Shown here: piece by piece, positions 1,192 through 37,307 of the stretch
Position numbering within the stretch: the stretch's first letter is position 1
Layout: every line of letters starts with the position of its first letter
Source: a virus
Length of the DNA: 37,307 nt
Strand: one strand, 5' to 3'
Virus record (IMG/VR): IMGVR_UViG_3300036985_001916
Coordinates: 1-37,307 of that record
The notes under the pieces: generated by a model
Database searches by the model: none
What the model was told of the DNA's origin: nothing
Seen by the model: the letters and a program-made list of their open reading frames with translations, nothing else
Position numbers and translations under genes: made by a program

Positions 1192-1263
1192 CGGACAATC
1201 TGTCCGGACAGCCCGGACATCGTGTCCGGACAACCTGTCCGCCTTGTCCGGACAATCTGTCCG
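1192..1263. repeat. 22-bp array of TGTCCGGACA palindromes
   Basis: Perfect 10-bp palindromes TGTCCGGACA start at 1201, 1223 and 1245, exactly 22 bp apart. Between them lie half-sites (CGGACA at 1192 and 1214; TGTCCG at 1236 and 1258). The same hexamer is clustered again at 6206-6412. A dimeric phage DNA-binding protein, either an initiator or a regulator, is the likely ligand, but its identity is not visible. Confidence 0.8.
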
Positions 1264-1713: not shown

Positions 1714-1995
1714 ATGACGTCTGCCATCCACAACGTGAACGGTCACGTCCGCACGATCACCGGTCCCCACGCCATCGAAGCCTATCGTCTCAAGGTGATC
1801 AAAGTGTCACTCCGCCTGTGGGCTAACACCGGTATTCAGCCTACGCGTAACGTGCGCATCCTGAAAGTTGCCCAGCAGGTGACCGGCCTCAAGACGCGCA
1901 ACGTTGACGCTTTGGTGGCGGCACTGGACGCCCTGATGGATGCAGAGCTGAGCCAGTGCGAGATTGGCACCCTGACGACGCCTGACGTTCAATAG
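1714..1995 (+). CDS. Early phage protein of unknown function
   Basis: A 93-residue protein, first gene of the rightward early operon behind P1, with ribosome site AAAGGAA before the ATG. Residues 14-60 are predicted helical and Lys/Arg-rich, reading like small phage proteins that start with an 'ITGP.AI.AYRL' segment. No catalytic motif or membrane segment is seen. Position suggests one of the first phage proteins made after infection, possibly modifying the host, but this is inference from gene order only. Confidence 0.7.
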   Translation: MTSAIHNVNGHVRTITGPHAIEAYRLKVIKVSLRLWANTGIQPTRNVRILKVAQQVTGLKTRNVDALVAALDALMDAELSQCEIGTLTTPDVQ

Positions 1996-2012
1996 CACTC
2001 GCGGTTTGACCG

Positions 2013-2034
2013 TGCCCCGGCGGATACCGGGGCA
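2013..2034 (+). other. Intercistronic hairpin
   Basis: Perfect 8-bp stem TGCCCCGG/CCGGGGCA with a 6-base loop between the first and second early genes. There is no T-run, so it is more likely an RNA processing or stability element than a terminator. Comparable hairpins precede the next genes (2820-2848, and a weaker one at 3096-3114). Confidence 0.55.
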
Positions 2035-2057
2035 ACCAGGAACAAGGACAAGACAAC

Positions 2058-2810
2058 ATGATTAAGAAACTATTGACCACCAAGCAATACAAGCTGGATA
2101 AAGGATTAGATTCTAGCGTCCTGACTGCCGGGATTACCTTGTCACCCGCTCACGAAGCGAGCCTAGTCCTAGGCCGCAAGCTACCCACGACGTGCAGTAT
2201 GTCGGGACATTGCGCAGCGGGTTGCTTAGTGCATAGCGGCATGAATCAGTACCCGACACATGCCGTAGCACGGGCGAACCGTACCGCGTATTGGTTTGAT
2301 GATCGGGCGGCATTCCTGCAACAGGCGATCCATGAATACCAGCTAGTCGCGAAGAAAGCTCAGCGCGACGGCATGCGGGCCGCTGGCCGTCCGAACCTGC
2401 TATCGGATCTGCCGCAGATGGCGCAGGCACTCGCGGACGCGCTGCCGAGCATTCAGTTCTACGACTACACGAAAATCCCACGCGCATGGGAACGCGTCCG
2501 CTCCAACTATCACCTGACGTACAGCGCATCGGAGCGTTCAACGGCAGCCGATATTCGCGATCATTTCGATCACGGGATTAATGTTGCCGTGGTCGTTTCC
2601 GATGTTGCCAAGGGCGAACCCTTACCCGCGACGTTTACGTTGCACGGTGTCACGCGTCCGGCCATCGACGGAGACGAGAACGATATCCGCTTCCGAGACG
2701 CTGTTGGCGTGTTTGTCCTGTTGCGTTGGAAGGGCTCGAAAGCGCGTCTCGCGTCCGCTGCCGAGTCTAAATGGGCTCAGCCGACAATCCCTCTGACGCT
2801 CGTTCACTAG
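2058..2810 (+). CDS. Gp88-like (mycobacteriophage gene product 88) family protein
   Basis: A 250-residue protein resembling the phage 'gene product 88' family. Matching features are an early Cys cluster (Cys46, Cys52, Cys56 in a C-x5-C-x3-C pattern), an FYDYTK motif at 134-139, a YHLTYSAS segment near 151 and DGDENDIRFRD at 204-214. The biochemical role of the family is unsettled. The cysteines could bind a metal or Fe-S cluster, which I infer from their spacing only. It is the largest gene of the early operon; its ATG has an upstream AAGGA. Family recognition is from memory of the motif pattern, so moderately sure. Confidence 0.65.
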   Translation: MIKKLLTTKQYKLDKGLDSSVLTAGITLSPAHEASLVLGRKLPTTCSMSGHCAAGCLVHSGMNQYPTHAVARANRTAYWFDDRAAFLQQAIHEYQLVAKKAQRDGMRAAGRPNLLSDLPQMAQALADALPSIQFYDYTKIPRAWERVRSNYHLTYSASERSTAADIRDHFDHGINVAVVVSDVAKGEPLPATFTLHGVTRPAIDGDENDIRFRDAVGVFVLLRWKGSKARLASAAESKWAQPTIPLTLVH

Positions 2811-2819
2811 TCACAAGCT

Positions 2820-2848
2820 GGCCAGCGTCCACACCTTGGGCGCTGGCC
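2820..2848 (+). other. Intercistronic hairpin
   Basis: Perfect 8-bp stem GGCCAGCG (2820-2827) with CGCTGGCC (2841-2848) and a 13-base loop, right after the Gp88-like gene. No T-tract follows, so read-through into the next gene (start 2878) is expected. Probably an RNA stability or processing element. Confidence 0.55.
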
Positions 2849-2877
2849 GTGACGAAGTCTCAGAATGGGAGTGTCTT

Positions 2878-3084
2878 ATGGCCTATGTCGATCCGAATTT
2901 CGCAACGAAGAAAGCGTTCTTGGCCGCCGTGAACGCGGGTGAATCTCTCTTGATCTATTCACCGGGACCGTTCGCCGTGAATCCGAATGGCCGAAACACG
3001 GTGGAGGGTCCGCACTATCCGCAGCCGCATAAATGGTATGCGACTGTGATCGTGAAAGATGGCATCGTCGTCTCTGCGAAGTAG
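2878..3084 (+). CDS. Small early phage protein, function unknown
   Basis: A 68-residue protein. The start is ATG at 2878 with GGGAG upstream; the frame runs further back but the extra residues have no ribosome site and overlap a hairpin. Its start, with an FATKKAFLAAVNAG helix followed by a strand and a PHYPQPHKWYATV segment, resembles small accessory proteins of phages and plasmids. No known domain is assigned. It lies third in the early operon. Confidence 0.65.
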   Translation: MAYVDPNFATKKAFLAAVNAGESLLIYSPGPFAVNPNGRNTVEGPHYPQPHKWYATVIVKDGIVVSAK

Positions 3085-3150
3085 TACACCTGGAACCGCG
3101 TCATGTCGGCGCGGGTCAATCTTTAAGACTGAGAACAGGAACCAGACACC

Positions 3151-3495
3151 ATGAACCTCACGATTCTGTCGGCGGCGTACCATCGGAACGGTTGCGGCGG
3201 TATGGGTTTTTTCGCGATTCTGTTCGACGACGCGGAACATGGCCGCATGATCGCGTCGCTATTTGAAAGGTCGGAATCCTTGGACACGGAGGTCTTGTTC
3301 GGCGAGGTGATCTGCTCCGTGTTTAGTGTCGCGGAACTCGCCGCCGGTAATATCGCGTTTGGATACGGTAATTCCTGGCGGGGAGACGTGTACGCTGAAG
3401 CCCTACGTCCGTTACTGCGGCGCTACATCGCCGCACGCGGGGCCGCGATGTATTCCTCGCCGAGCGAAACCCAACGGACGGACATTTCCGCGTAA
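3151..3495 (+). CDS. Early phage protein, function unknown
   Basis: A 114-residue protein with a mixed alpha/beta look: strand near 2-8, a Gly-rich turn (NGCGGMG, 13-19), a strand and a helix containing DDAEHGRMIASLF. No motif is recognised. An AGGAAC ribosome site precedes the ATG by about 9 bases. Weak inverted repeat CCGCG/CGCGG at 3096-3114 lies between it and the previous gene. A member of the P1 early operon. Confidence 0.65.
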   Translation: MNLTILSAAYHRNGCGGMGFFAILFDDAEHGRMIASLFERSESLDTEVLFGEVICSVFSVAELAAGNIAFGYGNSWRGDVYAEALRPLLRRYIAARGAAMYSSPSETQRTDISA

Positions 3496-3521
3496 GACAT
3501 CACCTGGAGGAACGAAACACC

Positions 3522-3710
3522 ATGATGACAAACCTACGGATCCGTAACACGTACAACGAGGACGGCGGCGCGTGGATCAATGCGAACACGGGACAGTTAG
3601 CCTATGCCAGAAAATTGCTGGCGGATCTGCGGAGGGACGAGCCGGAGGCTGGCTGGCGGCTCGAAACACGCGGGACGGCCACTCAGTGGCACCGGATGCG
3701 GGACTGTTGA
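3522..3710 (+). CDS. Small early protein with GGxWIN motif
   Basis: A 62-residue protein starting at a double ATG behind a strong GGAGGAA site. It contains GGAWIN near residues 14-19, followed by a basic helix. The protein at 3959-4264 carries GGGWIN at nearly the same place, so the two may be diverged paralogs. The stop codon overlaps the -35 box of promoter P2, so this gene ends the first half of the early operon. Function unknown. Confidence 0.65.
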   Translation: MMTNLRIRNTYNEDGGAWINANTGQLAYARKLLADLRRDEPEAGWRLETRGTATQWHRMRDC

Positions 3711-3736
3711 CAACCCGAACCGATTAGCCCTAGGAT
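3707..3736 (+). promoter_or_regulatory. Early promoter P2 (sigma-70 type)
   Basis: TTGACA (3707-3712), 18-bp spacer, TAGGAT (3731-3736). It shares with P1 the consensus -35, a spacer block AACCGATTAGCCC beginning 5 bp after the -35, and the downstream AAGGAACCCGA leader. The shared spacer block suggests a common regulator or a duplicated promoter cassette. Confidence 0.6.
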
Positions 3737-3776
3737 GTATTTACCGTTCGATTCACCCAAGAAAAGGAACCCGATC

Positions 3777-3962
3777 ATGACTATGAGCTACAGCGACCTG
3801 CGCAACCTGCACCAGACGATCGGCACGATCACCATTGAGAACCTCCAGTGCCAATCCAACGACGTACTGCGCCTGTTGGCGGGACGTTTAGAAGCCTTAC
3901 AGGACAATATCCGATCAGAGCAGCAGCGCCGCGCCGCCAAGGAACTGGAGGCGCGATCATGA
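3777..3962 (+). CDS. Small helical early protein
   Basis: A 61-residue protein that is almost wholly alpha-helical, with a likely coiled coil over residues 20-60 (LLAGRLEALQDNIRSEQQRR). The start is taken at ATG 3777, which has AAGGAA seven bases upstream and matches the leader of the first early gene; the earlier in-frame ATG at 3735 lies inside the P2 promoter. It overlaps the next gene by ATGA. Function unknown. Confidence 0.6.
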   Translation: MTMSYSDLRNLHQTIGTITIENLQCQSNDVLRLLAGRLEALQDNIRSEQQRRAAKELEARS

Positions 3963-4264
3963 ATCGGCAAAGCATCAACGGCGGCGGCTGGATCAACCTG
4001 GAGACGGCCAAAAAGTTCGTCGAAGATCGTAATTTTGATGGCCACAACATGATCAGCGCGGCCACGGGATCGCAGTGGGAACACGAGACGCTGTATCGCA
4101 GTGTCGGCGGCGTCTACGTGTTGCACACGTGGTCACAGTGTCAGGGCAGCCGTGACACTTGGGAGCGGATCGGTATGCATAACGCGGTCGCGTGGCTGTT
4201 GCAAAACGACTACGAGCCGGAATTGGCGGCTGAATTGTCGATTGTCGCCGGGTTGGAGGTTTGA
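3959..4264 (+). CDS. Early phage accessory protein with GGGWIN and WEHETLYRS motifs
   Basis: A 101-residue protein starting at an ATG that overlaps the preceding stop (ATGA). It has GGGWIN near residues 8-13, then GSQWEHETLYRS and a HTWSQCQGS.DTWE segment, a combination I associate with small accessory proteins in many phages, with no assigned activity. The N-terminal motif is shared with the gene at 3522-3710. No membrane or catalytic signature is seen. Confidence 0.7.
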   Translation: MNRQSINGGGWINLETAKKFVEDRNFDGHNMISAATGSQWEHETLYRSVGGVYVLHTWSQCQGSRDTWERIGMHNAVAWLLQNDYEPELAAELSIVAGLEV

Positions 4265-4266
4265 TC

Positions 4267-4518
4267 ATGATCACACGCACGATCCATTCTTGCGTCTTCG
4301 CTGGCGGCAGTTTCGGGATCGGCTCATCCGGTGAACTGATCCGTGTCTGGTTCTGTGGCGCGCATGTTGGGCCGCGACACACGCACGGGAATGCGTCCGG
4401 GCCGTGCGTCCATCGGAGTCGAGCCGCCGCTCGACGCTGCCCCGCCGTGGATCGACCGATGGCATACGACGCCCCGGAACTGTCCGGGCGGTCACATCAG
4501 CCGGAGGTAGCGCCATGA
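4267..4518 (+). CDS. Small early protein, Cys/His-containing, unknown
   Basis: An 83-residue protein with a strong GGAGG site 8 bases before the ATG. The first half is beta-like (SCVFAGGSFGIG). The second half is Arg/His/Pro-rich with scattered Cys (near 33, 49 and 60), which might bind metal, although the spacing fits no common finger. It ends in ATGA overlap with the next gene. The frame is supported by flanking overlaps rather than by homology. Confidence 0.5.
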   Translation: MITRTIHSCVFAGGSFGIGSSGELIRVWFCGAHVGPRHTHGNASGPCVHRSRAAARRCPAVDRPMAYDAPELSGRSHQPEVAP

Positions 4519-4751
4519 TCCTACAGACACCACCGGAAGATCAGGGCCAAATCGTGGAAACGTCGTATGGATGGGTGGATGGGTGCCTGTATCGACGATC
4601 CGTCGATGCCTCAGACGGATCGGTCATCTGGGAGGTGGCCGACGAAGACGAATCCGATCAACTGCCCGAAGGGTGGTGCGCGGTGAACGGATCACCCAAG
4701 ATCGACACTTGGATCCTTTGCGATCGCGCCCCGGAAGGTGATCGATGCTGA
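4515..4751 (+). CDS. Small acidic early protein, unknown
   Basis: A 78-residue acidic protein. The start is ATG 4515 with GGAGG upstream and ATGA overlap with the previous stop; the longer frame from 4404 is antisense-like Arg/Ser-rich sequence and was dropped. It contains a YGWVDGCLYRRSVDASDGSVIWEV strand-rich core broken here only for description, then an Asp/Glu run. It overlaps the next gene by 7 bases. Unknown function. Confidence 0.6.
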   Translation: MILQTPPEDQGQIVETSYGWVDGCLYRRSVDASDGSVIWEVADEDESDQLPEGWCAVNGSPKIDTWILCDRAPEGDRC

Positions 4752-5011
4752 CCGCCACACAACACGCGGCATGGGTCACGCGGGTCACCGCCCTACTGCT
4801 CAACAAGCGCATTGTAGACGTGCGCTTCATGTCCAGCGCGGACATGGAGGCGCACGATTGGGACGCCGGGCCGGTGATGTTTCAGCTCAACACGGGCGAA
4901 TGGGTGTACCCGTCGATGGACGATGAAGGCAACGGCCCTGGATCGTTGTTCACGACCAGCGCCTCGCTACCGATTATTCCGGCACTCGATGCCGCGCCGG
5001 GAGGCGCATGA
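4745..5011 (+). CDS. Early phage protein, conserved-looking, unknown
   Basis: An 88-residue protein with a helix (ATQHAAWVTRVTALLLNKRI), a strand and an MEAHDW segment, then a PSMDDEGNGPG segment near 57-68. I recognise this layout (VRFMS...E...W, then yPS.DdEGN..G.LF) from small phage proteins of unknown role that are likely compact beta-rich folds. It sits between overlapping genes on both sides, so translation is coupled through the whole 4515-5733 run. Confidence 0.7.
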   Translation: MLTATQHAAWVTRVTALLLNKRIVDVRFMSSADMEAHDWDAGPVMFQLNTGEWVYPSMDDEGNGPGSLFTTSASLPIIPALDAAPGGA

Positions 5012-5103
5012 TGACGAAAGACGATATGCGCGACGTACTGACCGGAATCTGCCTGTTCCCTCTTGGCTGGGCGTTCATCGTCCTGGTGGCCTGTATATGG
5101 TGA
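5008..5103 (+). CDS. 31-residue single-pass membrane micro-protein
   Basis: A short frame starting with a double ATG (5008 or 5011) behind GGGAGG, overlapping the preceding stop by ATGA. A charged N-terminus (MMTKDDMRD) is followed by one hydrophobic segment with ICLFPLGWAFIVLVACIW at the C-terminus. It fills exactly the gap between two coupled genes. That layout, a strong ribosome site and a clear membrane helix support a real gene. Role unknown; it could be an inner-membrane accessory protein. Confidence 0.55.
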   Translation: MMTKDDMRDVLTGICLFPLGWAFIVLVACIW

Positions 5104-5297
5104 ATTTGGCCGATCCACGGTCGGTGGCCGCTGCCCTGTTAGGCAAGCTGGGCGGACAGTCACGGTCAGAGTCCAAACGAGCCGCCAGCGCCGACAACGG
5201 GCGACGATCAGCGGTCAGAAAATACCCCCGCTGCGAGAACTGCGAAGAGAAAAAACGCACCTGCTATCACCGCGTCCCCAAAGAGGTCACCAAGTGA
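5097..5297 (+). CDS. Small basic protein with C-terminal Cys/His knuckle
   Basis: A 66-residue protein starting at ATG 5097 (or GTG 5100), overlapping the micro-protein before it. Residues 20-42 are basic and Ser-rich. The C-terminus has Cys46-x2-Cys49, Cys56 and His58, a possible small zinc knuckle for nucleic-acid binding. The gene stops in a GTGA overlap with the next. Function inferred only as possible nucleic-acid binding. Confidence 0.55.
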   Translation: MVNLADPRSVAAALLGKLGGQSRSESKRAASADNGRRSAVRKYPRCENCEEKKRTCYHRVPKEVTK

Positions 5298-5485
5298 ACA
5301 CGAACGAGAACACGAACACCGCACCGATCGCCTACGTTTTCGGTGACCGCGCCGCCTACACGGGCAAGGTCGTCGAGGCGTATGGTGGCACCTTTTATGA
5401 GGTCAAGATGCTGGAGGGCCACATGGAGGGCCAACTAAAAGCGGTCAAACAGCCGCCCATGCCGAAAGCGGAGGCCCAGTCATGA
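5294..5485 (+). CDS. Small early protein, unknown
   Basis: A 63-residue protein starting with GTG at 5294 in a GTGA overlap, with GAGGT upstream. A polar Asn/Thr-rich start is followed by a beta-like core, with AYTGKVVEAYGGTFYEVKML as its central segment. This pattern resembles small SH3-like barrels, but that is only an impression. It ends in ATGA overlap with the last early gene. Confidence 0.55.
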   Translation: MNTNENTNTAPIAYVFGDRAAYTGKVVEAYGGTFYEVKMLEGHMEGQLKAVKQPPMPKAEAQS

Positions 5486-5733
5486 GCGAGAACCTGATCA
5501 AGGTCGGTGACACCGTCCTCTGTCGTGGTGGGTGGGGCAGCGAAGCCCCCCAGCCGGTCACCATCACGCACCTGGAACTGTGCGTCGAAAAGGGCGACAA
5601 GTACGGAGTGCCGGTGACCGAATTACCGTGGAGCGAGAAAGGCCGCGCCGTGGTGGACATGAACAACGGCCATTGGGCGTACGGGTCGCACATTGAGCCG
5701 TTGGTACAGCGGATCGGTGATGAACCGGTCTAG
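5482..5733 (+). CDS. Last early-operon protein, beta-rich, unknown
   Basis: An 83-residue protein with two recognisable blocks: an N-terminal IKVGDTVLCRGGWG and a C-terminal VVDMNNGHWAYGSHIEP. I associate this pairing with small phage proteins having a KOW/SH3-like beta fold of unknown role. It closes the rightward early operon; a convergent hairpin at 5797-5836 follows. The ATG overlaps the preceding stop. Confidence 0.7.
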   Translation: MSENLIKVGDTVLCRGGWGSEAPQPVTITHLELCVEKGDKYGVPVTELPWSEKGRAVVDMNNGHWAYGSHIEPLVQRIGDEPV

Positions 5734-5872: not shown

Positions 5873-6145
5873 TCAAACCTCGTCATTCGGCGGCAGCACC
5901 TCCCACAGGTGCTTATTCGCCTTGTGGGCGGCTAATCCGCGAAAGGCGGCTGACAGCTGACATCGGACGAAATACTCCGGTCGTCGCAACCTGGTGGTGC
6001 CTTCCCACCCTTGCACGGTTCGCCAGCTAATCCCGGTGCCGTCTTCTTGTGTCCAATGTTTGGCGAATTTTCGGCACGTCTCACGCAGGATCTCCCGCCG
6101 GAAAACGGCAATCTGAATCGGTGTCCATTGAATCGACGGCAGCAT
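5873..6145 (-). CDS. Helix-turn-helix DNA-binding protein
   Basis: A 90-residue protein reading as an XRE-like helix-turn-helix: FRREILRETCRKFAKHW as helices 1-2 and a recognition helix around SWRTVQGWEGTTRLRRP (about 40-56). It is small enough to be a stand-alone regulator or origin-binding protein. A clean AGGAG site precedes the ATG. The upstream DNA has a hairpin (6170-6203) and ten TGTCCG sites (6206-6412), which makes this protein a candidate ligand for that motif; this is inference from proximity. It is the last gene of the leftward replication operon, possibly with its own promoter. Confidence 0.7.
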   Translation of the reverse strand: MLPSIQWTPIQIAVFRREILRETCRKFAKHWTQEDGTGISWRTVQGWEGTTRLRRPEYFVRCQLSAAFRGLAAHKANKHLWEVLPPNDEV

Positions 6146-6169
6146 ATTTACTTCTCCTATCTGTCCTGA

Positions 6170-6203
6170 CCCCTCCCTCCCCTACTATGTAGGGGGGGAG
6201 GGG
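6170..6203. other. GC-rich hairpin upstream of the HTH gene
   Basis: CCCCTCCCTCCCCTAC (6170-6185) pairs with the 15 bases at 6189-6203 around a TAT loop, leaving one bulged T. In the leftward transcript it lies about 25 bases before the helix-turn-helix gene and has no T-run. Reading rightward it is followed by TTT only. Possible attenuator or transcription pause site. Confidence 0.6.
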
Positions 6204-6205
6204 TT

Positions 6206-6412
6206 TGTCCGGATCAGATCCCCGCTTGTCCGGACAACCATGTCCGGGAGTTAACCTACTGCGAACAAAGACCTTGCGCGTTTGCGGTTTTCGGTTGTCC
6301 GCTACGTGTCCGCCACCATGTAAGAATTACGTGTCCGGGCGTTTTCAGGCCCAAATTTGCAAATTCTTACGTTTTGTCCGGGTTTGTCCGCCCTTTGTCC
6401 GCCCCTTGTCCG
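6206..6412. repeat. Cluster of ten TGTCCG sites
   Basis: TGTCCG occurs at 6206, 6226-6237 (as perfect 12-bp TTGTCCGGACAA), 6241, 6296, 6307, 6332, 6375, 6385, 6396 and 6407. The last four are phased by 10-11 bp. Between them lie a perfect palindrome AATTTGCAAATT (6354-6365) and a 9-bp inverted repeat GTAAGAATT/AATTCTTAC (6320-6328 and 6362-6370). Same hexamer as the array at 1192-1263. The stretch 6146-6417 holds no gene. Confidence 0.75.
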
Positions 6413-6417
6413 GGCTG

Positions 6418-6900
6418 CTACGGATCGAAGGGGTCAACAAAGCCCTTTTCCTTCCAGTATCTTTCTTCCGCAGCCTGACAGGGGGGGCAGCGCCCGTATT
6501 CCCGGCCAGCCAGCGCCTCCCCGCAAGAAAAGCACGCCCAGAGGCCGTGGGGGCCATCGGAGGCCACCGGCACCACATCCCCGCCCCCGCGTTCGATCAT
6601 CGCGTCTAGGCGTCCCTGAGCCGCCGGGGTGAGTATCTGAGCCACCGCGAGGGCTTCGGCGTCAGGCCGTGACAGATTGCCGTCGTATTCGGCAATTGCG
6701 GCCCGTTCGTCGTATTCGGCCAAATAGTCGAGAATGTCCGCCTTGTGGTCACGGATCGCTTGACCGTCCGCCGGGGTCAGCCGGTGACCCGGTTCGACAA
6801 ACAGGGTGTCCCCGTCAGCCCGTAATTTGAACCCGTCCCGCTCCAGTCGCAGCAGCAGGTCAATCGCGCCATCCGCAAAGGGCAACGGTACGTCTCGCAT
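6418..6900 (-). CDS. TubC-docking-like and zinc-ribbon protein, primase-associated
   Basis: A 160-residue protein directly downstream of the primase-helicase, with its ATG overlapping that gene's stop (TAATG). Residues 10-60 resemble the TubC N-terminal docking-like fold (LLLRLERDGFKLRADGD..., LTPADGQAIRDHKADILDYL), which often occurs next to or fused to phage and plasmid primases. The C-terminus has Cys123-x2-Cys126 and Cys138-x2-Cys141, a zinc ribbon. It probably assists the replication enzyme, for example through DNA or protein contacts; the precise role is unknown. Confidence 0.7.
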   Translation of the reverse strand: MRDVPLPFADGAIDLLLRLERDGFKLRADGDTLFVEPGHRLTPADGQAIRDHKADILDYLAEYDERAAIAEYDGNLSRPDAEALAVAQILTPAAQGRLDAMIERGGGDVVPVASDGPHGLWACFSCGEALAGREYGRCPPCQAAEERYWKEKGFVDPFDP

Positions 6901-8945
6901 TAAAACCTCCCCGCTTGCTGACCGCTGGTCAGACTGACCGCTAGCCGGATCCGCTGGTCAGGGTCACGCGCAAAGACACCGTCCATGCGACGGATCGTGC
7001 GCCCGATGGTGTCGGTCTTCTCGCCGAGTTCCGTCGCCAATTCCTCGACCGACAAGGGCCGGTGGGCGACGAGCGCCTTGATGCGCTGCCAGACCGGCAG
7101 CACGGCGGATAACTCCTCGCTCGACGCCACGTCGAACCGGTCAACCCGTGTCGTCGTCGCATCGAACGTCAGCCGCAGACCGAAGGCCGGAAGCCGTCTC
7201 GATGTATTCGACTTTTTGTGAGACAGGGCGACTTCGATCACGTTGCCCCCGTCACCGGCATCGTTACTGCGTTTGATATGGAACATGCTCCGAGCGGCTG
7301 CGCTCCAGAACGTGGAACCGAACGGTTTCTCCTCCCCATGTTCCAGCGATTTGGTCGTATGCGCGAGATGCAGCGACCCCACTCCCAACTGACGCACGGC
7401 CCTGAAAAAGGCCGTCGCGTGTTCCGCGTCTTCGGGCCGTCCTGGCACCGCGAACCCGACACTGTCGCAGACAAAATACTGAATGCCGTGCTGCACAATG
7501 TGCCTCTGTAGTCGGGCCGCTTCCGACACCATGGGCGAGGCGCAGCGCACGTAATGCAGGGTGTCACGCGGCATCCCGTCCCAGCCGCACAATCGCTCTA
7601 ATCGTTCCCGGTGGTCTTCAGGACTAAACTCCCAGTCCCCGTACAAGACCTTGATGCCGCGTCTCGCTAACGTCGAGGCGATATGGAGCGCCAAGTACGA
7701 CTTCGCGCTGCCCCCGTCGCCGAACAGAATCATGGGGTGCCGTTGGAGGATCGGAATGCCGGATACTTCCCAGTTGCTGACGACTTCCGGCAGACCGTAA
7801 TCCGCCAGCGGCTGAATCGGGGTGCCTTCACTTTCCGCCTGCTGCACCCGCAACGACAACGTCTCGACCGCCCCCAACCAGTCCAGACCGGCGGCACCGG
7901 AGCGTCCCGCACAGGACTGGGCCAACGTCGCCCGTGTGCGCTGGGACGAGAAGTTGGCGCTGCTCCACAGTAGGACGCCATCAATGGTTTTCGCGCCCAT
8001 CAGGGTCGTGGTCACGGTCAGTTCACCGTGGAGGTCACGGTCACGATCACGGTGGAGTTGTTCCGCCCGGAGCGTAATACCCAGCGCCGGATACTCCAGC
8101 GAGTAGGCTCCCTCGCCCAGCTTCACGAATGTCTGCTCCGACCGCAGGAGGTCAGGAATGCTCCCGTGTTCAATCACCGGCATCTCGACCGGAGGAGCCG
8201 TCGCCAGGTCGAGGAGCCGCGCTGCCGTGCCACCTGAGGCAAACCAGTCCGAGACATCCCCGTGTGCTTGTAGACCCGGCAGGGCCACCAGCGTGGCCGT
8301 CAGACCCGCTGCCGTCAGTTGCTCGACGACACTGGCCGCGTGGCGACGACCCGGCACATCATGGTCAGGGACGACATACACCTGCGTGGGGGCCAACGCG
8401 ACAAGGGCAGCGGTTTCTTCCGCCTTCCACTTCCCGGCCCCACCACAGTTGGTGGTCGCGGCCAGCCCGTGAGCGCGGCAGGTTTCGACATCCTTCTCGC
8501 CTTCCACGATCCACACTACCGGTTGACCCGTGAGGTCGGGCCAGCGATACAGCGCACGGGTCTTACTGGCTGACCAGATCCAGCCACCGGCCCCATCGGG
8601 TCGTCGCTGCCGGAAACTCTTATCCGCGCCTCGCACAACTTGGTGCAGGAGGGTGCCATCCAGATCGGTGTAGTCGTAGACCGCCGCCGCACTGGTCGAG
8701 CGCAACACCGGGGTCGGCTCCGGCACCCGGACGACTTCCTCAAACAGATCCGCCAGCGTCAGACCCACCGACGACAGGATGTCGGCGGTCGCGCACCCCG
8801 CATGGCAGTGGATCAGCACCCGCCCGTCCTTCTCGGTCGCTGACACCGACGCCACCCGATCCTCATGGACGGGACATTGAAGCGCGTAGCCAGCCCCCGC
8901 CCGTTTGGCGGACGGGAACCGACCGACGACTTGGTCGAGCGTCAT
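6900..8945 (-). CDS. Primase-helicase (CHC2/TOPRIM primase fused to RecA-like ATPase)
   Basis: A 681-residue replication protein. A CHC2-type zinc finger at about 24-51 (CPVHED, then HCHAGC) is followed by a TOPRIM domain with EGEKD at 148-152 and the Asp pair PDHD at 193-196. A RecA-like ATPase has Walker A GDGGSAKS at 409-416 and Walker B around YFVCDSVG (490-497). The C-terminal ~70 residues look like a winged helix (LSVEELATELGEKTDTIGRTIRRM). The start at 8945 overlaps the previous stop (ATGA); the longer frame back to 9071 is low-complexity Arg/Gly sequence overlapping the upstream gene. It should lay primers and unwind DNA at the fork, recruiting host polymerase, since no phage polymerase was found. 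Confidence 0.9.
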   Translation of the reverse strand: MTLDQVVGRFPSAKRAGAGYALQCPVHEDRVASVSATEKDGRVLIHCHAGCATADILSSVGLTLADLFEEVVRVPEPTPVLRSTSAAAVYDYTDLDGTLLHQVVRGADKSFRQRRPDGAGGWIWSASKTRALYRWPDLTGQPVVWIVEGEKDVETCRAHGLAATTNCGGAGKWKAEETAALVALAPTQVYVVPDHDVPGRRHAASVVEQLTAAGLTATLVALPGLQAHGDVSDWFASGGTAARLLDLATAPPVEMPVIEHGSIPDLLRSEQTFVKLGEGAYSLEYPALGITLRAEQLHRDRDRDLHGELTVTTTLMGAKTIDGVLLWSSANFSSQRTRATLAQSCAGRSGAAGLDWLGAVETLSLRVQQAESEGTPIQPLADYGLPEVVSNWEVSGIPILQRHPMILFGDGGSAKSYLALHIASTLARRGIKVLYGDWEFSPEDHRERLERLCGWDGMPRDTLHYVRCASPMVSEAARLQRHIVQHGIQYFVCDSVGFAVPGRPEDAEHATAFFRAVRQLGVGSLHLAHTTKSLEHGEEKPFGSTFWSAAARSMFHIKRSNDAGDGGNVIEVALSHKKSNTSRRLPAFGLRLTFDATTTRVDRFDVASSEELSAVLPVWQRIKALVAHRPLSVEELATELGEKTDTIGRTIRRMDGVFARDPDQRIRLAVSLTSGQQAGRF

Positions 8946-15105: not shown

Positions 15106-16788
15106 TCACTGATACCCCTGCGCTTGCAACTGCCGCGCTTCCAGTTCGTTAATCGCCCCCGCTGACAACGCACCCGCAATGCCGTATTTCTTCACAATAC
15201 TGATCTTGGTATCGTCAAACACGACGTAGTTGCGAGTGGACTGCGTTTTTTCAAGCGCGTCCAGCTCCTGCTGCCAATGGTCAAACGGAAGACCCTGGGC
15301 TTTCTCTCTTGCAATTCTGTCTTTTAAAAGACCAACGCGAAACGACGGCCCACGGGAGCCTTCGTCAAGATACTTAATGCCCTGAATACCCGCAGCACGT
15401 AAACCCTCTTCTGGGTCTTCGTCCATCCGAATCCTTCGCAGCGCATCGCCCATGTTTTCACCTTCTTGCGGCTGCAAGTAGGTGGGTAATTTCTGCCGCA
15501 CCTTCTCGCTCTGCTGGCTCAGGGGCGCATCCCAATCAAGGAAGTCCTCGGGATCGGCGTCGATGTTCACTTCATACATATGCCCACGGCCCTTGTTGAT
15601 CTGGCCTGTTGGGGCCGCTTTCACATGTTGCCACGAATCCATTAATTGCCGCATTTCGTCAGAGGTAGACTCCATCGCGTCAAGCCGTGCCGCGTATAAC
15701 TTCGCAGAGCCAAGATCGTCCATTTTGAGTGAATTGATGTAGCCCCACAGGTCTTGCACTCTATTGATTGCCTTGGGGTCATTGCGTATTTGCGCGGCTG
15801 ACACGACGGGCTTGCCCCCAACTTCAAACTGTGGCGCGAGGGCATTTCTATAGTCAGTAGCTACATTTTCGTTTTCCGCGAAATACAGCCCACGTAAATA
15901 AGACTGATTTCCTTCCCCCGTCCCGATCTTGCTCAGGCTGAACTGGTCGAAGTCATGCGGAGAGCCGTGAAAGGCTTTGATGCCCTGCTTGGCCTTAGGC
16001 GCATCCATTAAGTCTAGGGCCGACTCAAACTGTGCCTCATATTGTCCGGACAAATTGTAATCGCTTCGCACCTTGGCCGCGCTTCCGGATTCTTTTAACA
16101 TGTCGTGCGTCTGTTGCGTAACCTGACGGGCGTGTTCTGGTCGCATACCCTGTTTCTGGAGCGTCTCCACCACGTCGGAGTAGTCTTGAATCACCGACAC
16201 CGGGACATCCTGAACCCCCAGCGACTGAAGCGCACGTAGCCGGTGTTGACCCTCAATGACGTTGCCGTTCTGATCCACAATCAACCGCTCAATGTATCCA
16301 TCCTTAGATGACATCTGTTGGGCGATCTTGTTCACCTTTGCGGCGTCATCTGCCGCCGCCGACATGCCACCGCGTAAGGTGTCAATATTCACCGTGCGGT
16401 TGCCGACCGGGATACCGTAGTCAAAGTTGGCATCGGCTACATCACGCAACGATTCACGGGCCGCTTTGTATGGCAACTTCTTTGCGCCAGCCACGCCACG
16501 TAACGCCTTCACTCCGCCCACCAGCGGCATCCCTGCCGCCAGGAGTTCTCCCAGCAACGCCGCCCGGTTCCCCTCGTCACTCATCGGCAGACCCGTGAAG
16601 CCACCCACGCCAGCAACGCCACTCAACAGCGCGTTGCGGATCATGCCGCCAATGGAGTCTTCTGACGGAGCATAGTTCTTGGTATTGGGCAGGTTCGGCC
16701 CCTGCCACTCGCTCAGCATGTCCTCTGGCACCAGACGCGACGGCAGCAGCGCACTCATGGTTGGCGCTTTGGCTTGACGTTCGCTCAC
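15106..16788 (-). CDS. Polyvalent-type protein: ParB-like plus ADP-ribosyltransferase-like domains
   Basis: A 560-residue protein from GTG 16788 (GAGGAC upstream, GTGA overlap). Residues 45-100 are Gly/hydrophobic. A ParB/Srx-like core spans about 130-205, with the hallmark VIEGQHRLRAL at 177-187. From 271 a domain resembles the ADP-ribosyltransferases of phage polyvalent proteins: FHGSP (273-277), GLYFAENENVATDY (300-313), a DFLDWDAPL block (415-423), GIQGIKYLD (467-475) and YVVFDDTKISIV (521-532). Such multidomain proteins of phages and conjugative elements are thought to enter the host with the DNA and neutralise host factors. The ART half is visibly AT-richer than the ParB half. Active sites and delivery are unproven. 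Confidence 0.75.
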   Translation of the reverse strand: MSERQAKAPTMSALLPSRLVPEDMLSEWQGPNLPNTKNYAPSEDSIGGMIRNALLSGVAGVGGFTGLPMSDEGNRAALLGELLAAGMPLVGGVKALRGVAGAKKLPYKAARESLRDVADANFDYGIPVGNRTVNIDTLRGGMSAAADDAAKVNKIAQQMSSKDGYIERLIVDQNGNVIEGQHRLRALQSLGVQDVPVSVIQDYSDVVETLQKQGMRPEHARQVTQQTHDMLKESGSAAKVRSDYNLSGQYEAQFESALDLMDAPKAKQGIKAFHGSPHDFDQFSLSKIGTGEGNQSYLRGLYFAENENVATDYRNALAPQFEVGGKPVVSAAQIRNDPKAINRVQDLWGYINSLKMDDLGSAKLYAARLDAMESTSDEMRQLMDSWQHVKAAPTGQINKGRGHMYEVNIDADPEDFLDWDAPLSQQSEKVRQKLPTYLQPQEGENMGDALRRIRMDEDPEEGLRAAGIQGIKYLDEGSRGPSFRVGLLKDRIAREKAQGLPFDHWQQELDALEKTQSTRNYVVFDDTKISIVKKYGIAGALSAGAINELEARQLQAQGYQ

Positions 16789-23134: not shown

Positions 23135-25080
23135 TAGATCAACCCATACATGCGCTGGTAGGTGTCACCGGCATTGGCTCGGCCCTGGTTGTATTGCTCG
23201 ACCCAGTTCCGATACTGCTGGTCATACGCCTGCTGCTGCGCCCGCAACTGGTATTGCTGCTGGTTTTGATACGCCGCAAGGTTTGTGTTGTAGGCACCCG
23301 ACCGACGCGCTTCCGCTTCTTGGTTGGCCATGTTCCGCCCCGCCGTGTTGGTCGTGTACTGACGATACGCGTTCTCGGTGTTGGTGTTGTAGGCATTGGC
23401 CGCATTGCCGACATTGCGGTCAAACGCCCCCGCACGGTTGGCTTCGTTCTGGTTATACGCGCCCATCGCGTTGGCGTAGTTGGTCTGGTAGGTGTTGAAC
23501 CGGTTCTGCTCGTTCGTGGTGTAGTCGTTGAGCTTCCGGCCATACGCCGCGCCGTACTCCTGTGACCCCGCCTGTTGGCCGTAGTCCAAGATGTCTCGGA
23601 GGTTGCCACCCGTGTTGGTGACCCCTTTAGCCGCACCACTGCGCTCCAACGCCTGCTGCCCCTGTTGCATCCGAAACTGATAGCCGGGGTCGGCGTTCAT
23701 CTCGTCCACGCTCAGACCGGTAAACGGTTGGGCGGCGGCATACTCAGGTCGCGCAAACGGGGTCGCCACTTCGTAGGCCGGAGGCGTAAACGGAGCCGGG
23801 GCGTTGTAGGTTTCCGGGTTGTAGTTGGCCAGTGGGTTGTAGGGCGTAATGCCGCTTTGGTTCTCGTATTGACCGGTTCTTTCGTTGAATCCGCCCGACC
23901 CACCCGCGTACATCATGCCATCATTACCACCGCCACCCATGCCCATGGCGCGTGGGCCAGCCGTAGCCGCTGGGTTCATCAGGGGACTGCCACCACCAGA
24001 CGCCGTAAAGCCACGCGCTGTAGCAGCAGCACTGGCCGCAGGTGTTGTCGCCTTCGGGGTAGTGGAGGTTGTCGTGGTCGTGGTATTGCCGCTTCCCGCT
24101 GGCCCCCACCACCAGCCGTTGCCGGTGTTGGCTCCCTTGTCGAACATCTGGCCGACATCAACAATGCCCACGGGTTCGCCCGTCGCGCCGTCCGACAACG
24201 TGCCGCCAAAGTCGATGCTGTCATGCCCGGACAGCTTGGCTTTCGGGAACCGGTTCTTAAACTCCGGGTCTTCCATCAACTGTTTCAACCCTGAGGGCGT
24301 CGGCGGGTAGCGGTTGGCAATCTGGGCAAACCCATACTTCACCGAGTTCATGGTAGGGCTAGCCGAGGTCGCCGCCGAGTAGTTTTGTTGATTGAACCCC
24401 AGCAGGTTGCCCATATTGGCGGCACCTGGTGCGCGGCGAATGCCCCCGCTGAAGTTTTCCCACCCAGGTTTCAGCTGGCCGTTAGCATCAAAGATTTGGT
24501 CGCTGCTAACGCCCTGACGCGCCCACCAATCGGTGTTCTGGTAGTCGGCGCGTCCCGCCTGACCGGGATTCGCGGCATTGGCTCCCGTGGCATACCGAGA
24601 CTGTGCGGCCTTGGCTTCACCAGAGGTGGCAATGCCCTGCACGATGCGGCTAATTCCCGACGCGCCTTTGCCCCAACCGTTCTGACCAGACAGCCACGCG
24701 GTGATCTCGGCATCACTGGCGTCTCGCAACAGATGCGTCTTATAGGCACTGGCAATCTGAGCGCGTAACGACGGGTCTTGCGTTTCGTCTGCGGGTGCGG
24801 AGGGGCCGGGAACAGAAGGCGGGGCGTTTCCGCCCGTGCCGGGTTGTCCACCCGTAGGCTCTTCTGCGCCACCACCGCCGCCACCCTGTGCTTCACTGCC
24901 CCCACCGCCGCCGCCCTGTGAACGTGCGGCGTACGCCTGCGCTTCACCAGACGAGCGAATGGCGTCCACCCATGCAGCAGGGTTGTCGCCGTAGCCATAG
25001 GCACCCGACTCCCAGTTGGCGACCTCGTCGTCACTGGCGTCCCGGCCTAAATACGTGCGATACGCTTCACGAATACCCAT
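23134..25080 (-). CDS. Large virion protein with DUF4214-like repeats and Tyr/Asn-rich C-terminus
   Basis: A 648-residue protein. Two repeats of ~45 residues (about 4-50 and 111-160) share Y(R/K)T.L.RDASD.E...W and a closing SGEA, resembling DUF4214. A Gly-rich low-complexity linker separates them. Around 245-310 lies a NSVKYGFAQIANRY...PEFKNRFPKAKLSGHDSIDFG domain. From ~455 comes DPGYQFRMQQGQQALERSGAA, a block I know from phage virion proteins, followed by Tyr/Asn-rich helical repeats (AYNTNTENAYRQY). Likely an injected virion protein or tail-associated component. Confidence 0.65.
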   Translation of the reverse strand: MGIREAYRTYLGRDASDDEVANWESGAYGYGDNPAAWVDAIRSSGEAQAYAARSQGGGGGGSEAQGGGGGGAEEPTGGQPGTGGNAPPSVPGPSAPADETQDPSLRAQIASAYKTHLLRDASDAEITAWLSGQNGWGKGASGISRIVQGIATSGEAKAAQSRYATGANAANPGQAGRADYQNTDWWARQGVSSDQIFDANGQLKPGWENFSGGIRRAPGAANMGNLLGFNQQNYSAATSASPTMNSVKYGFAQIANRYPPTPSGLKQLMEDPEFKNRFPKAKLSGHDSIDFGGTLSDGATGEPVGIVDVGQMFDKGANTGNGWWWGPAGSGNTTTTTTSTTPKATTPAASAAATARGFTASGGGSPLMNPAATAGPRAMGMGGGGNDGMMYAGGSGGFNERTGQYENQSGITPYNPLANYNPETYNAPAPFTPPAYEVATPFARPEYAAAQPFTGLSVDEMNADPGYQFRMQQGQQALERSGAAKGVTNTGGNLRDILDYGQQAGSQEYGAAYGRKLNDYTTNEQNRFNTYQTNYANAMGAYNQNEANRAGAFDRNVGNAANAYNTNTENAYRQYTTNTAGRNMANQEAEARRSGAYNTNLAAYQNQQQYQLRAQQQAYDQQYRNWVEQYNQGRANAGDTYQRMYGLI

Positions 25081-35195: not shown

Positions 35196-36623
35196 TTAAT
35201 GTGCCATCCAACTTGAGGCTTGCGACGTGCGCCGTGGTGACCGATTAACCGTCTGTGGGGCCACACGCATCTGTGAACGCCCACTAATAATCAAATACCG
35301 GGTGGCATCCATTAAATGGTCGCCACTTTTGACAATCTTACCCTGCTCGTCTCGATGATACTTACGAAACTCGTTGCGCCAGTTGCGAAGATGCTCCTGC
35401 ACCTTGAGCCGCCCCGACACCAGCAGGTTCCATGTCTCGGTAATCCCGGCTTCCACGGCATTGACGGCAGGGTCGAGCTTGAGGCCCAGCCGCCCGTAAA
35501 TCTGGATCAGCGTCCGACCATCAATCTGGCTACTGCCGGAGGAGGCGGGGTCAATCACGCCAGACATCCACGCGCCCCGGGCTTTCACCGCTTCGGCGTG
35601 GCTGGCGGGTTCGCCTTGCCCCTGATAATGCTCGTCATACAGCACAATTTGGCCCGAGCCGGGATTTTGTGCGCCCCAGATAACAGCAGTGCGGTTCCAG
35701 CCCACATCCATGGCGTAGACCTTGCGCCACGTGTCGGGGATTTCGGCGGTCGGGACAATAATGTCCTTCTCGGAGATGGGATAAATGGCTCCCGACCCCA
35801 GACTGGGTTCGCCTTCGGTTCGGGCCGCAATCTGGTAGGGCGGCGTGGTGGCCATCAGGGCGCGGCGTTCATCGACATCCAGATGCGGGACATCTTTCCA
35901 TCCGGCTTGGATATACGTCTTGAACTCAGCAGCCAGATCCGTTTCCGGCTCCAAAAAGCCCTTGACCACGGCGCTCATGCCCTGCAACGGCGTGAACGTC
36001 ACCATGACTATACCCTTGGTGGTCACGGTGCGGTAGAGCATTTCGGTATAGCAGTCGGACGGCGGTTCCTCGTCGCACCAGATGACATGCTTGCTGGTGC
36101 CTTCAAACGACGGTCGCCCCTGCTCGTAGGTTTTGAGGCCCAGTAGGCTTTGGCCCCCAGACACATGTTTGATCACCGCGCCTTCCAGCGCCCCCGGCAA
36201 CCCTCGGCTGCTAATCGTGGAGACAATTAGGTGGGCGGGAATCATGCCCGTGCCTGGCAGTTGCACCGATCCCAGCAACTTAGCTTGGACAATATCGCGG
36301 GTGGTCTGGCTGTTCGTGCCAACGGCCCAACACTCGACCGGGGTGTCAAACCGACGACCGGCCCACCACTTGGGGTAGAGGCCGGTCAGGTGGCAGGTCA
36401 GTTCGTAGGCTCCCGCTTCCGATTTGCCCACGCGGTTCGCGGCCATAAACAGCCGCTCTTTAAAGACTTTGCCTTGTGAGAAGAACTCCAGATGGCGGGG
36501 GTAGAGCGCCCGGGCCAAGGGGCCGCTGTCGGCAAAGAAGTTGGTAAACCGGGACGACGACCGGCGTTCCGCTTCATCCATCAGGCGCTGAAACAGCACC
36601 TGTTCGTCTAGCGTCAGTGGCAT
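35196..36623 (-). CDS. terL: Terminase large subunit
   Basis: A 475-residue DNA-packaging motor. ATPase: Walker A ANRVGKSEAG (62-71), Walker B VIWCDEE (180-186) with the catalytic Glu pair, and coupling motif TFTP (209-212). Nuclease (RNase H-like): Asp306 in YAMDVGWNRT, Asp358 in GVIDPASSG and Asp439 in DHLMDATRY. It threads DNA into the procapsid and cuts it, in the Terminase_6-like group. The P22-type neighbours suggest headful packaging, which would give circularly permuted, terminally redundant DNA and fits the assembly result. Confidence 0.95.
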   Translation of the reverse strand: MPLTLDEQVLFQRLMDEAERRSSSRFTNFFADSGPLARALYPRHLEFFSQGKVFKERLFMAANRVGKSEAGAYELTCHLTGLYPKWWAGRRFDTPVECWAVGTNSQTTRDIVQAKLLGSVQLPGTGMIPAHLIVSTISSRGLPGALEGAVIKHVSGGQSLLGLKTYEQGRPSFEGTSKHVIWCDEEPPSDCYTEMLYRTVTTKGIVMVTFTPLQGMSAVVKGFLEPETDLAAEFKTYIQAGWKDVPHLDVDERRALMATTPPYQIAARTEGEPSLGSGAIYPISEKDIIVPTAEIPDTWRKVYAMDVGWNRTAVIWGAQNPGSGQIVLYDEHYQGQGEPASHAEAVKARGAWMSGVIDPASSGSSQIDGRTLIQIYGRLGLKLDPAVNAVEAGITETWNLLVSGRLKVQEHLRNWRNEFRKYHRDEQGKIVKSGDHLMDATRYLIISGRSQMRVAPQTVNRSPRRTSQASSWMAH

Positions 36624-37307
36624 TTAATCGTGAAGCTTCTTGAGCAACGCCGCCATGCTGGCTTTCAATTCCGCATCACTGAGACTCGCGGTCGGGGTCG
36701 AAGTCACATCCAAATCCAGACTCTGACGCGCCTGTCCAAACAGGCGATCCATGATGTCCTTGAGGATCGGCGCACTGGGCGCAATGGCACTGAGTCGATA
36801 CGCCTGTTCTCCCGCCTCCAGCTTTGCGTTCATCACATCGGCATCGACCACCGTCTGCCACTTGCCCTGCGCGTCCCGCGCCTGCATGTGGGTGACGCCC
36901 TCGGCGGCGGTCAACTGCGCTTCCACGAGCCGGTCAAACCGCTTGGACACGGCTTGTTTCCACGCCGCCAGCAGTTCCGTCTTTTCACGGACGCGCATGG
37001 TCTGACGAATCTTGGGGCCATTCACAATGTCACCCTTGGGTCTGTGCCGATACCCGGGGCCAAGTTTTGGTGTTCTCATAACGACGCCCATCTTACCCTA
37101 TTTCATGGTATGGTGTGTCTGCTCGGCTGGGAGGGTCAACCGCTGGCGGCAGAGCAACGTTGTTCAGGTGGCTACCAGTATCAGACAGCTACCACGGTGG
37201 GAACCCCCTTCAGTGGGGAACCGATTAGAGCCGCTGATGGAGAGGACGCTCCCTCTTAACGTCTGATCGCGTGGTGCCTGGATCGTCAGGAGCCACCCCA
37301 CTCTCCG
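36515..37307. repeat. Terminal direct repeat, copy B
   Basis: Partner of 1-793 at a fixed offset of 36,514, with no insertions or deletions. The ~31 substitutions lie between about 128 and 671 of the repeat. It contains the 5' end of the large terminase, the small terminase and 216 bases of upstream DNA. Confidence 0.95.
36624..37091 (-). CDS. Putative terminase small subunit (repeat copy B)
   Basis: The second allele of the 155-residue protein at 110-577, identical in amino acids. Here the upstream extension is blocked by TAG at 37100-37098, which fixes the start at ATG 37091 or the internal ATG five codons later; a GGG-TAAG lies just before it. The gene ends directly at the large-terminase start. 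No helix-turn-helix was identified with certainty, so function is by place and size. Confidence 0.6.
   Translation of the reverse strand: MGVVMRTPKLGPGYRHRPKGDIVNGPKIRQTMRVREKTELLAAWKQAVSKRFDRLVEAQLTAAEGVTHMQARDAQGKWQTVVDADVMNAKLEAGEQAYRLSAIAPSAPILKDIMDRLFGQARQSLDLDVTSTPTASLSDAELKASMAALLKKLHD

Follow-up and report, generated by a model that had tools for sequence, protein, structure and literature searches.

The stretch of DNA analyzed here, hereafter the window, is 37,307 nucleotides long and makes up the whole of IMG/VR virus record IMGVR_UViG_3300036985_001916. Its two ends (1–793 and 36515–37307) overlap over 793 bp at 96% identity; thus, the genome is near-complete, circular or permuted, about 36.5 kb in length, and assembled across strain variants. 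Read around the circle, the leftward terminase genes are followed by a first cluster of the hexamer CGGACA/TGTCCG (array 1), a rightward block of small genes, the gene of a 90-aa protein, a second cluster (array 2), a gene for a TubC_N-domain protein, and a primase-helicase gene, beyond which lie the remaining genes, mostly leftward (Table 1). The gene content of the rightward block varies among relatives, and both arrays persist. The terminase genes are named from position and size, and TerS from its position, without a family match; a near-duplicate of the TerS gene at 36624–37091 is the overlapping contig end, i.e., the other strain’s copy. Rfam and tRNA scans of the window returned no hit, and its GC skew was uninformative for an origin or terminus. 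Since homologues of the helicase occur in genomes of Acidobacteriota, the host probably belongs to that phylum. Elsewhere in the window, the non-coding stretch 600–870 upstream of TerS is well kept in relatives and may hold a packaging site, and a 560-aa polyvalent protein (15106–16788) combines a ParB-like stretch with an ADP-ribosyltransferase-like domain; a relative of its C-terminal half is encoded within the rightward block of locus L003.

Table 1. Features of the window discussed in the text.
Feature	Coordinates	Strand	Remarks
Putative TerS	110–625	−	Adjoins the 475-aa gene 35196–36623; nearest gene on the other side of array 1
Array 1	1192–1263		10 CGGACA/TGTCCG half-sites; between TerS and the rightward block
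Rightward block of small genes	1714–5733	+	Between arrays 1 and 2
90-aa protein, fold unassigned	5873–6145	−	Beyond array 2; binder proposed in the sequence-only reading
C-rich hairpin CCCCTCCCCCCCTACATAGTAGGGGAGGGAGGGG	6169–6204	−	Conserved; far edge of array 2
Array 2	6206–6412	−	11 CGGACA half-sites, mostly direct; proposed origin iterons
A+T-rich stretch	6338–6374		40.5% GC vs. 59% for the genome; inside array 2; candidate unwinding element
160-aa TubC_N-domain protein	6418–6900	−	Between primase-helicase and array 2
Primase-helicase, 723 aa	6900–9071	−	Toprim primase half, RecA/RepA-type (AAA_25) helicase, C-terminal winged helix; proposed initiator
Winged-helix domain, about residues 655–712	6936–7109	−	Predicted structure
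Recognition helix, residues 686–695	6987–7016	−	Residues 687 (D) and 691 (R) covary with the repeat

In array 1, the palindrome TGTCCGGACA lies at 1201, 1223, and 1245, with a period of 22 bp, and four CGGACA-N3-TGTCCG dyads lie at 1192, 1214, 1227, and 1249. Of the 11 hexamers of array 2, ten share one orientation and the other is part of a palindrome. An earlier reading made from the sequence alone had given the coordinates of array 1 and its three palindromes correctly, and had rightly noted that the two clusters bracket the rightward operon. For array 2, its observation of four sites phased at 10–11 bp (6375, 6385, 6396, and 6407) holds, and its count of ten TGTCCG sites has to be raised to 11. 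The genome-wide comparison that it proposed gives a modest excess, with 42 copies of TGTCCG/CGGACA against 30.1 ± 5.3, a count reached by 3 of 100 shuffles. It is the grouping of these copies that is decisive: across 200 dinucleotide shuffles, no hexamer exceeded 6 sites per 72 bp or 6 per 207 bp, compared with 10 sites in the 72 bp of array 1 and 11 in the 207 bp of array 2. Thus, the clustering of the hexamers is not due to chance, and a random-sequence model, the refutation envisaged in that reading, does not reproduce it.

Conservation of the sites is seen in an alignment of three related phages. Identical columns make up 64/64 of the site positions of array 2 vs. 102/143 in its spacers (Fisher p = 6e-8), and 54/54 vs. 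14/18 in array 1 (p = 0.003); in two near relatives every site of both arrays is unchanged while the spacers drift. A second cluster near the terminase genes, in the place of array 1, is found in the near relatives of the window G001 (11 sites) and G002 (10 sites), and in a 52%-identical phage, G411 (4 sites). The same search in eight more distant records (G005, G006, and G412–G417) found no second array, and two runs in G006 belong to a single array that is split between the ends of the contig. Array 1 is therefore a trait of the window’s group. A third CGGACA cluster in G001 (24461–24575) falls within CAG-repeat DNA and was discounted; the corresponding region of L003 (5000–5340; about 24460–24580 in G001) is a long CAG/CAGCAG tract with interspersed CGGACA and matches the window’s leftward genes.

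Next to array 1, repeats occupy 996–1059 and 1122–1181, comprising an 11-bp tandem repeat (TCTCCTGATCT, 5.8 copies) and a 21-bp repeat (GTGTTCCATTTCGGTACACGA, 2.9 copies) with a near-palindromic TGTTC..GGTACA; relatives carry other tandem repeats at this place (e.g., L083 11030–11560), which marks a fast-changing repeat zone. About 220 bp from array 1, a C-rich hairpin at 931–970 (CCGCCCCCCAAAGGGGCGG, or CCCCTTTGGGG on the opposite strand) is kept in relatives and resembles the hairpin of the origin arrays. The non-coding stretch 1277–1350, ACTGCGTATCCA..TGGTTT.TGGATTT.GCGGGGTATGAAG, adjoins the array and is strongly conserved in three phages. The sole sigma-70-like promoter upstream of the rightward block lies at 1638–1666, 375 bp from array 1, with no overlap.

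Array 2 has a hairpin at its edge and an A+T-rich stretch inside it. A stem pair of the hairpin is altered on both sides in L083 (TAC..GTA to TAT..ATA), and there is no T-run, which argues against a simple terminator. By analogy with the ssi hairpins of RSF1010 (PMC4234260), we propose a single-strand initiation (priming) hairpin; it could also serve transcription. Most arrays of relatives contain or adjoin such a hairpin, with a C-rich left arm and a TTTA/TATA/GTA core, often abutting an inverted copy of the repeat (e.g., ACACCCCCCCTTTAGGGGGTGTCC).

The protein encoded next to array 2 beyond the TubC_N gene is a fusion of three parts. Its primase half matches PHROG DNA primase families (E = 7.6e-32 and 2.5e-18) and Pfam Toprim_3 below the curated cut-off (E = 2.4e-4), and its helicase half matches Pfam AAA_25 above the cut-off. 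An AlphaFold model of the helicase and C-terminus (mean pLDDT 87.9) contains a confident RecA core plus a winged helix, made up of helices 371–379, 386–393, and 397–406 followed by two strands (model numbering; add 289 for the residue number). Weak Pfam helix-turn-helix matches coincide with this predicted winged helix. In a PDB search, the model matched RadA, DnaB, T7 gp4, and KaiC with Z of about 21–22, through the RecA core alone; a profile match to RSF1010 RepA (1g8y) is weak (E = 0.066).

Clusters of CGGACA or similar repeats stand directly behind the helicase gene in phages whose proteins are only about 40% identical to the window’s primase-helicase. A wider search, for which the aligned helicase plus winged-helix region served as the query, yielded 57 viral loci, four species-representative genomes (all Acidobacteria MAGs), and further copies from the same phylum. 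We compared the densest hexamer in the 400 bp around each helicase stop with that in every other 400-bp window of the locus: the locus maximum falls exactly at the stop in 22 of 55 loci, vs. 0.33 expected. In the window, one gene (TubC_N) intervenes, and in L282 (52% identity) the array lies 1.5 kb further beyond the helicase gene. About half of the surveyed loci have no array behind the helicase, including the near relatives L280, L281, and L283; their contigs are fragmentary, or the array is elsewhere. A direct DNA search with array 1 in named phages gave no match, and the exact three-iteron pattern was too unspecific as an IMG/VR query. Several repeats proved to be something else: the ACCTGT repeat of L228 (683–941) looks like a pentapeptide-repeat gene, and a 15-bp repeat near TerL in L005 and a GTCCC run in L281 are simple tandem repeats rather than the iteron module.

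The repeat itself varies across relatives: CGGACA, CGGACG, TGGACA, TAGACA, GTGACA, ATGACA, GTAACA, GTTGCA, GCTGCA, GCAACA, and others. Among adjacent sites, 25 of 66 inverted pairs are separated by exactly 3 bp, the commonest inverted-pair geometry; 12 are overlapping palindromes, and direct repeats recur at 7–8 or 11–12 bp. With its four 3-bp dyads, array 1 is thus built like the arrays of distant phages. Two named phages have the same layout, with C-terminal domains unlike the window’s: the Salicola phage CGphi29 (L356 3529–3690) has six GGGACA copies and a hairpin behind its primase-helicase gene, and the Rhizobium phage RHph_Y3_1 (L217 6700–6900) has a TGGGAAC array and a hairpin. No clear array follows the primase-helicase gene in Wolbachia phage WO, Microcystis phage Mae-JY30, Mycobacterium phage Faze9, or Salinibacter phage M8CR30-2. 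One Acidobacteria MAG (G010; loci L239 and L244) carries two full helicase copies with CGGACA-type and CGGACG-type arrays, possibly two coexisting replicons with distinct iterons.

We ranked all 385 alignment columns of the helicase and winged helix by their association with each motif position; ranking against the helicase’s own columns guards against shared ancestry, since those columns would carry ancestry too. The top column for each of motif positions 1, 2, and 3 is residue 691, in the recognition helix; residue 687, in the same helix, comes second at position 1 and third at position 2. Where the third motif base is G, residue 691 is long (R, K, or Q; 19/19 loci), and where it is not, the residue is small (T, S, A, or V; 9/9 loci; Fisher p = 1.4e-7, a value that ignores ancestry). 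Residue 687 is N in all loci with a TGAC-type repeat. For position 3, helicase columns 570, 463, and 446 also score high, because one deep clade lacks the G.

In a tree from which the winged helix was left out, the repeat and residue traits change five times each, and the independent pairs all agree (four on supported branches, five on all), although four to five phylogenetically independent changes are too few for this comparison by itself to give p < 0.05. In sister pairs, for example L296/L301, repeat and residue both differ. Outside the set from which the rule was found, L239, L249, L251, L252, and L255 fit it (the last with N/Q beside GTGACA), as do L282, L299, L321/L325, and L328; L254 breaks the residue-691 rule, with T beside CAGACA. 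The register of the non-CGGACA repeats was set by eye, and L231, L292, L320, and L328 (the last before the choice of register) fit uncleanly. From the covariation and the predicted fold, we conclude that the winged helix of the primase-helicase probably reads the repeat sites.

Taken with the anatomy of the locus, this makes it likely that both clusters are iterons of the helicase’s winged helix, with array 2 acting as the origin and array 1 recruiting the same protein. Since iterons, a hairpin, and an A+T-rich stretch behind a primase-helicase gene are the anatomy of known origins, array 2 is probably the replication origin. The primase-helicase would bind the iterons as dimers or oligomers through its winged helix, a specificity that the covariation supports; it would then load its RecA-type helicase ring and open the A+T-rich stretch, and the Toprim half or a host primase would prime on the hairpin or on the single strand thus exposed. 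Array 1, which lies about 5 kb from array 2 next to the terminase genes, may recruit the same protein; that it does so as an accessory site for replication or copy control, similar to P4 crr, is its most likely role but also the weakest step of the proposal. Besides a crr-like accessory function, array 1 may control copy number by pairing with array 2, regulate late genes, or have a link to packaging. The suggestion of the sequence-only reading that a single protein acts at both clusters is probably right, given the shared hexamer and the array 1 dyad, which is the commonest inverted geometry in distant arrays. Looping or pairing between the two clusters, which it also suggested, may occur.

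The winged helix could instead bind the arrays for transcriptional (auto)regulation, array 1 acting on the divergent terminase and rightward promoters and array 2 on the 90-aa gene. Array 1 does lie between divergent blocks, array 2 precedes the 90-aa gene, and the second clusters stay beside the terminase genes in G001, G002, and G411. However, the place of the array behind the helicase gene is kept in most relatives regardless of which gene comes next; the predicted promoter at 1638–1666 is clear of the sites; and a hairpin and iterons adjoining a primase-helicase gene are the anatomy of an origin. We consider regulation unlikely as the main role. A simple operator is likewise not favored: the arrays accompany the helicase gene, their repeat covaries with the winged helix of the encoded protein, and the only promoter-like site upstream of the rightward block is 375 bp away from array 1.

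The 90-aa protein, put forward in the sequence-only reading as a helix-turn-helix binder, would act at both arrays as a repressor or looping protein. Its gene is beside array 2, and its WRTVQGWE segment loosely resembles a helix-turn-helix. Nevertheless, it has no Pfam or PHROG family match, and none to a repressor family; its AlphaFold model is poor (pLDDT 64) and matches no PDB fold; and among the array-bearing loci tested it occurs only in the two nearest relatives, with arrays present in dozens of phages that lack it and the repeat covarying with the helicase instead. We regard this binder as very unlikely. The TubC_N protein was set aside as a general binder, being confined, among the array-bearing loci tested, to the two nearest relatives.

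For array 1 alone, a role in packaging is conceivable, with the small terminase as the reader; the resemblance to array 2 would then stem from replication proteins recruited to the packaging start. It lies upstream of the terminase genes in the window, G001, G002, and G411, and the GGGACA array of L013 is found on the TerS side too. The same hexamer and dyad, however, make up the proposed origin arrays in phages without this TerS gene, and such a site is very unlikely. Partition, with the arrays as parS-like centromeres of a plasmid-prophage, finds some echo in dense palindromes at two places and in weak ParB-domain matches in the 560-aa protein, but is barely credible: those matches are short (about residues 133–234) and sit in an ADP-ribosyltransferase polyvalent protein far from the arrays, and the arrays accompany the helicase gene across phages. 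Among the window genes searched, no ParA and no other ParB-like stretch was seen.

The preferred reading, an origin read by its own primase-helicase, can be set beside known replicons. P4 needs, in cis, both ori and crr, a second cluster of the same repeats some kb from ori, and the helicase of P4 alpha is of the SF3 type. In the window, as with P4 ori and crr, array 1 stands about 5 kb from array 2, and two clusters are likewise present in G001, G002, and G411. The part of PMC4234260 that treats P4 (citing Ziegelin and Lanka 1995; Yeo et al. 2002) describes alpha as one chain with a Toprim primase, a ring helicase, and a repeat-reading winged helix; similarly, the window protein joins a Toprim primase, a helicase, and a predicted winged-helix reader in one chain. 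Unlike P4 alpha, its helicase is of the RecA/RepA type (AAA_25), the repeats of the window type are different and drift quickly, and the array lies behind the helicase gene, usually with a C-rich hairpin.

RSF1010 (IncQ) has a RepA-type helicase, iterons in its oriV, and short ssi hairpins where priming starts (PMC4234260). The window has putative iterons and conserved hairpins as well, and its helicase belongs to the AAA_25 family, with the weak profile match to RepA noted above; gp5 of phage WO, which is related to the Rhizobium phage helicase, carries an annotation of similarity to RSF1010 RepA. In RSF1010, however, RepC reads the iterons, RepA unwinds, and RepB′ primes, as separate chains, whereas in the window the covarying reader and the helicase are one chain and the Toprim primase is fused to it as well. 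In pRN1 ORF904 and the Bordetella phage BIP-1 replication protein, a C-terminal winged helix is followed by a stem-loop origin directly downstream of the gene (PMC4234260), and the present arrays sit similarly behind the helicase stop (22/55 loci, with one intervening gene in the window), where their origin function would be analogous. Those proteins combine an archaeo-eukaryotic primase with an SF3 helicase and use a large stem-loop without iterons, in contrast to the Toprim and AAA_25 domains of the window protein. By the features tested, the window’s system would work like P4 alpha and RSF1010 and is a member of neither, since its helicase is RecA-type rather than SF3 and its covarying reader is fused rather than a separate RepC.

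A targeted search of open papers returned no description of this iteron/primase-helicase module, and in the same papers no origin is described for these phages. As a broader and more tentative possibility, the module may represent a large unrecognized class of phage replicon, in which a RecA-type primase-helicase would be its own origin reader and loader, the iterons would drift with two recognition-helix residues to give many mutually orthogonal origins, and, in the window’s group, a second cluster beside the terminase would couple replication to late expression or packaging. CGphi29 and RHph_Y3_1, named phages with known hosts and the same anatomy, make the module testable now. The link between two recognition-helix residues and the repeat would make the origin motif predictable from the protein sequence, and offers a way to study how an initiator and its origin change jointly. 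What began as an unexplained repeat can now be framed as a specific and testable pairing of origin and initiator that recurs across phages, some of which, at least, are phages of Acidobacteriota.
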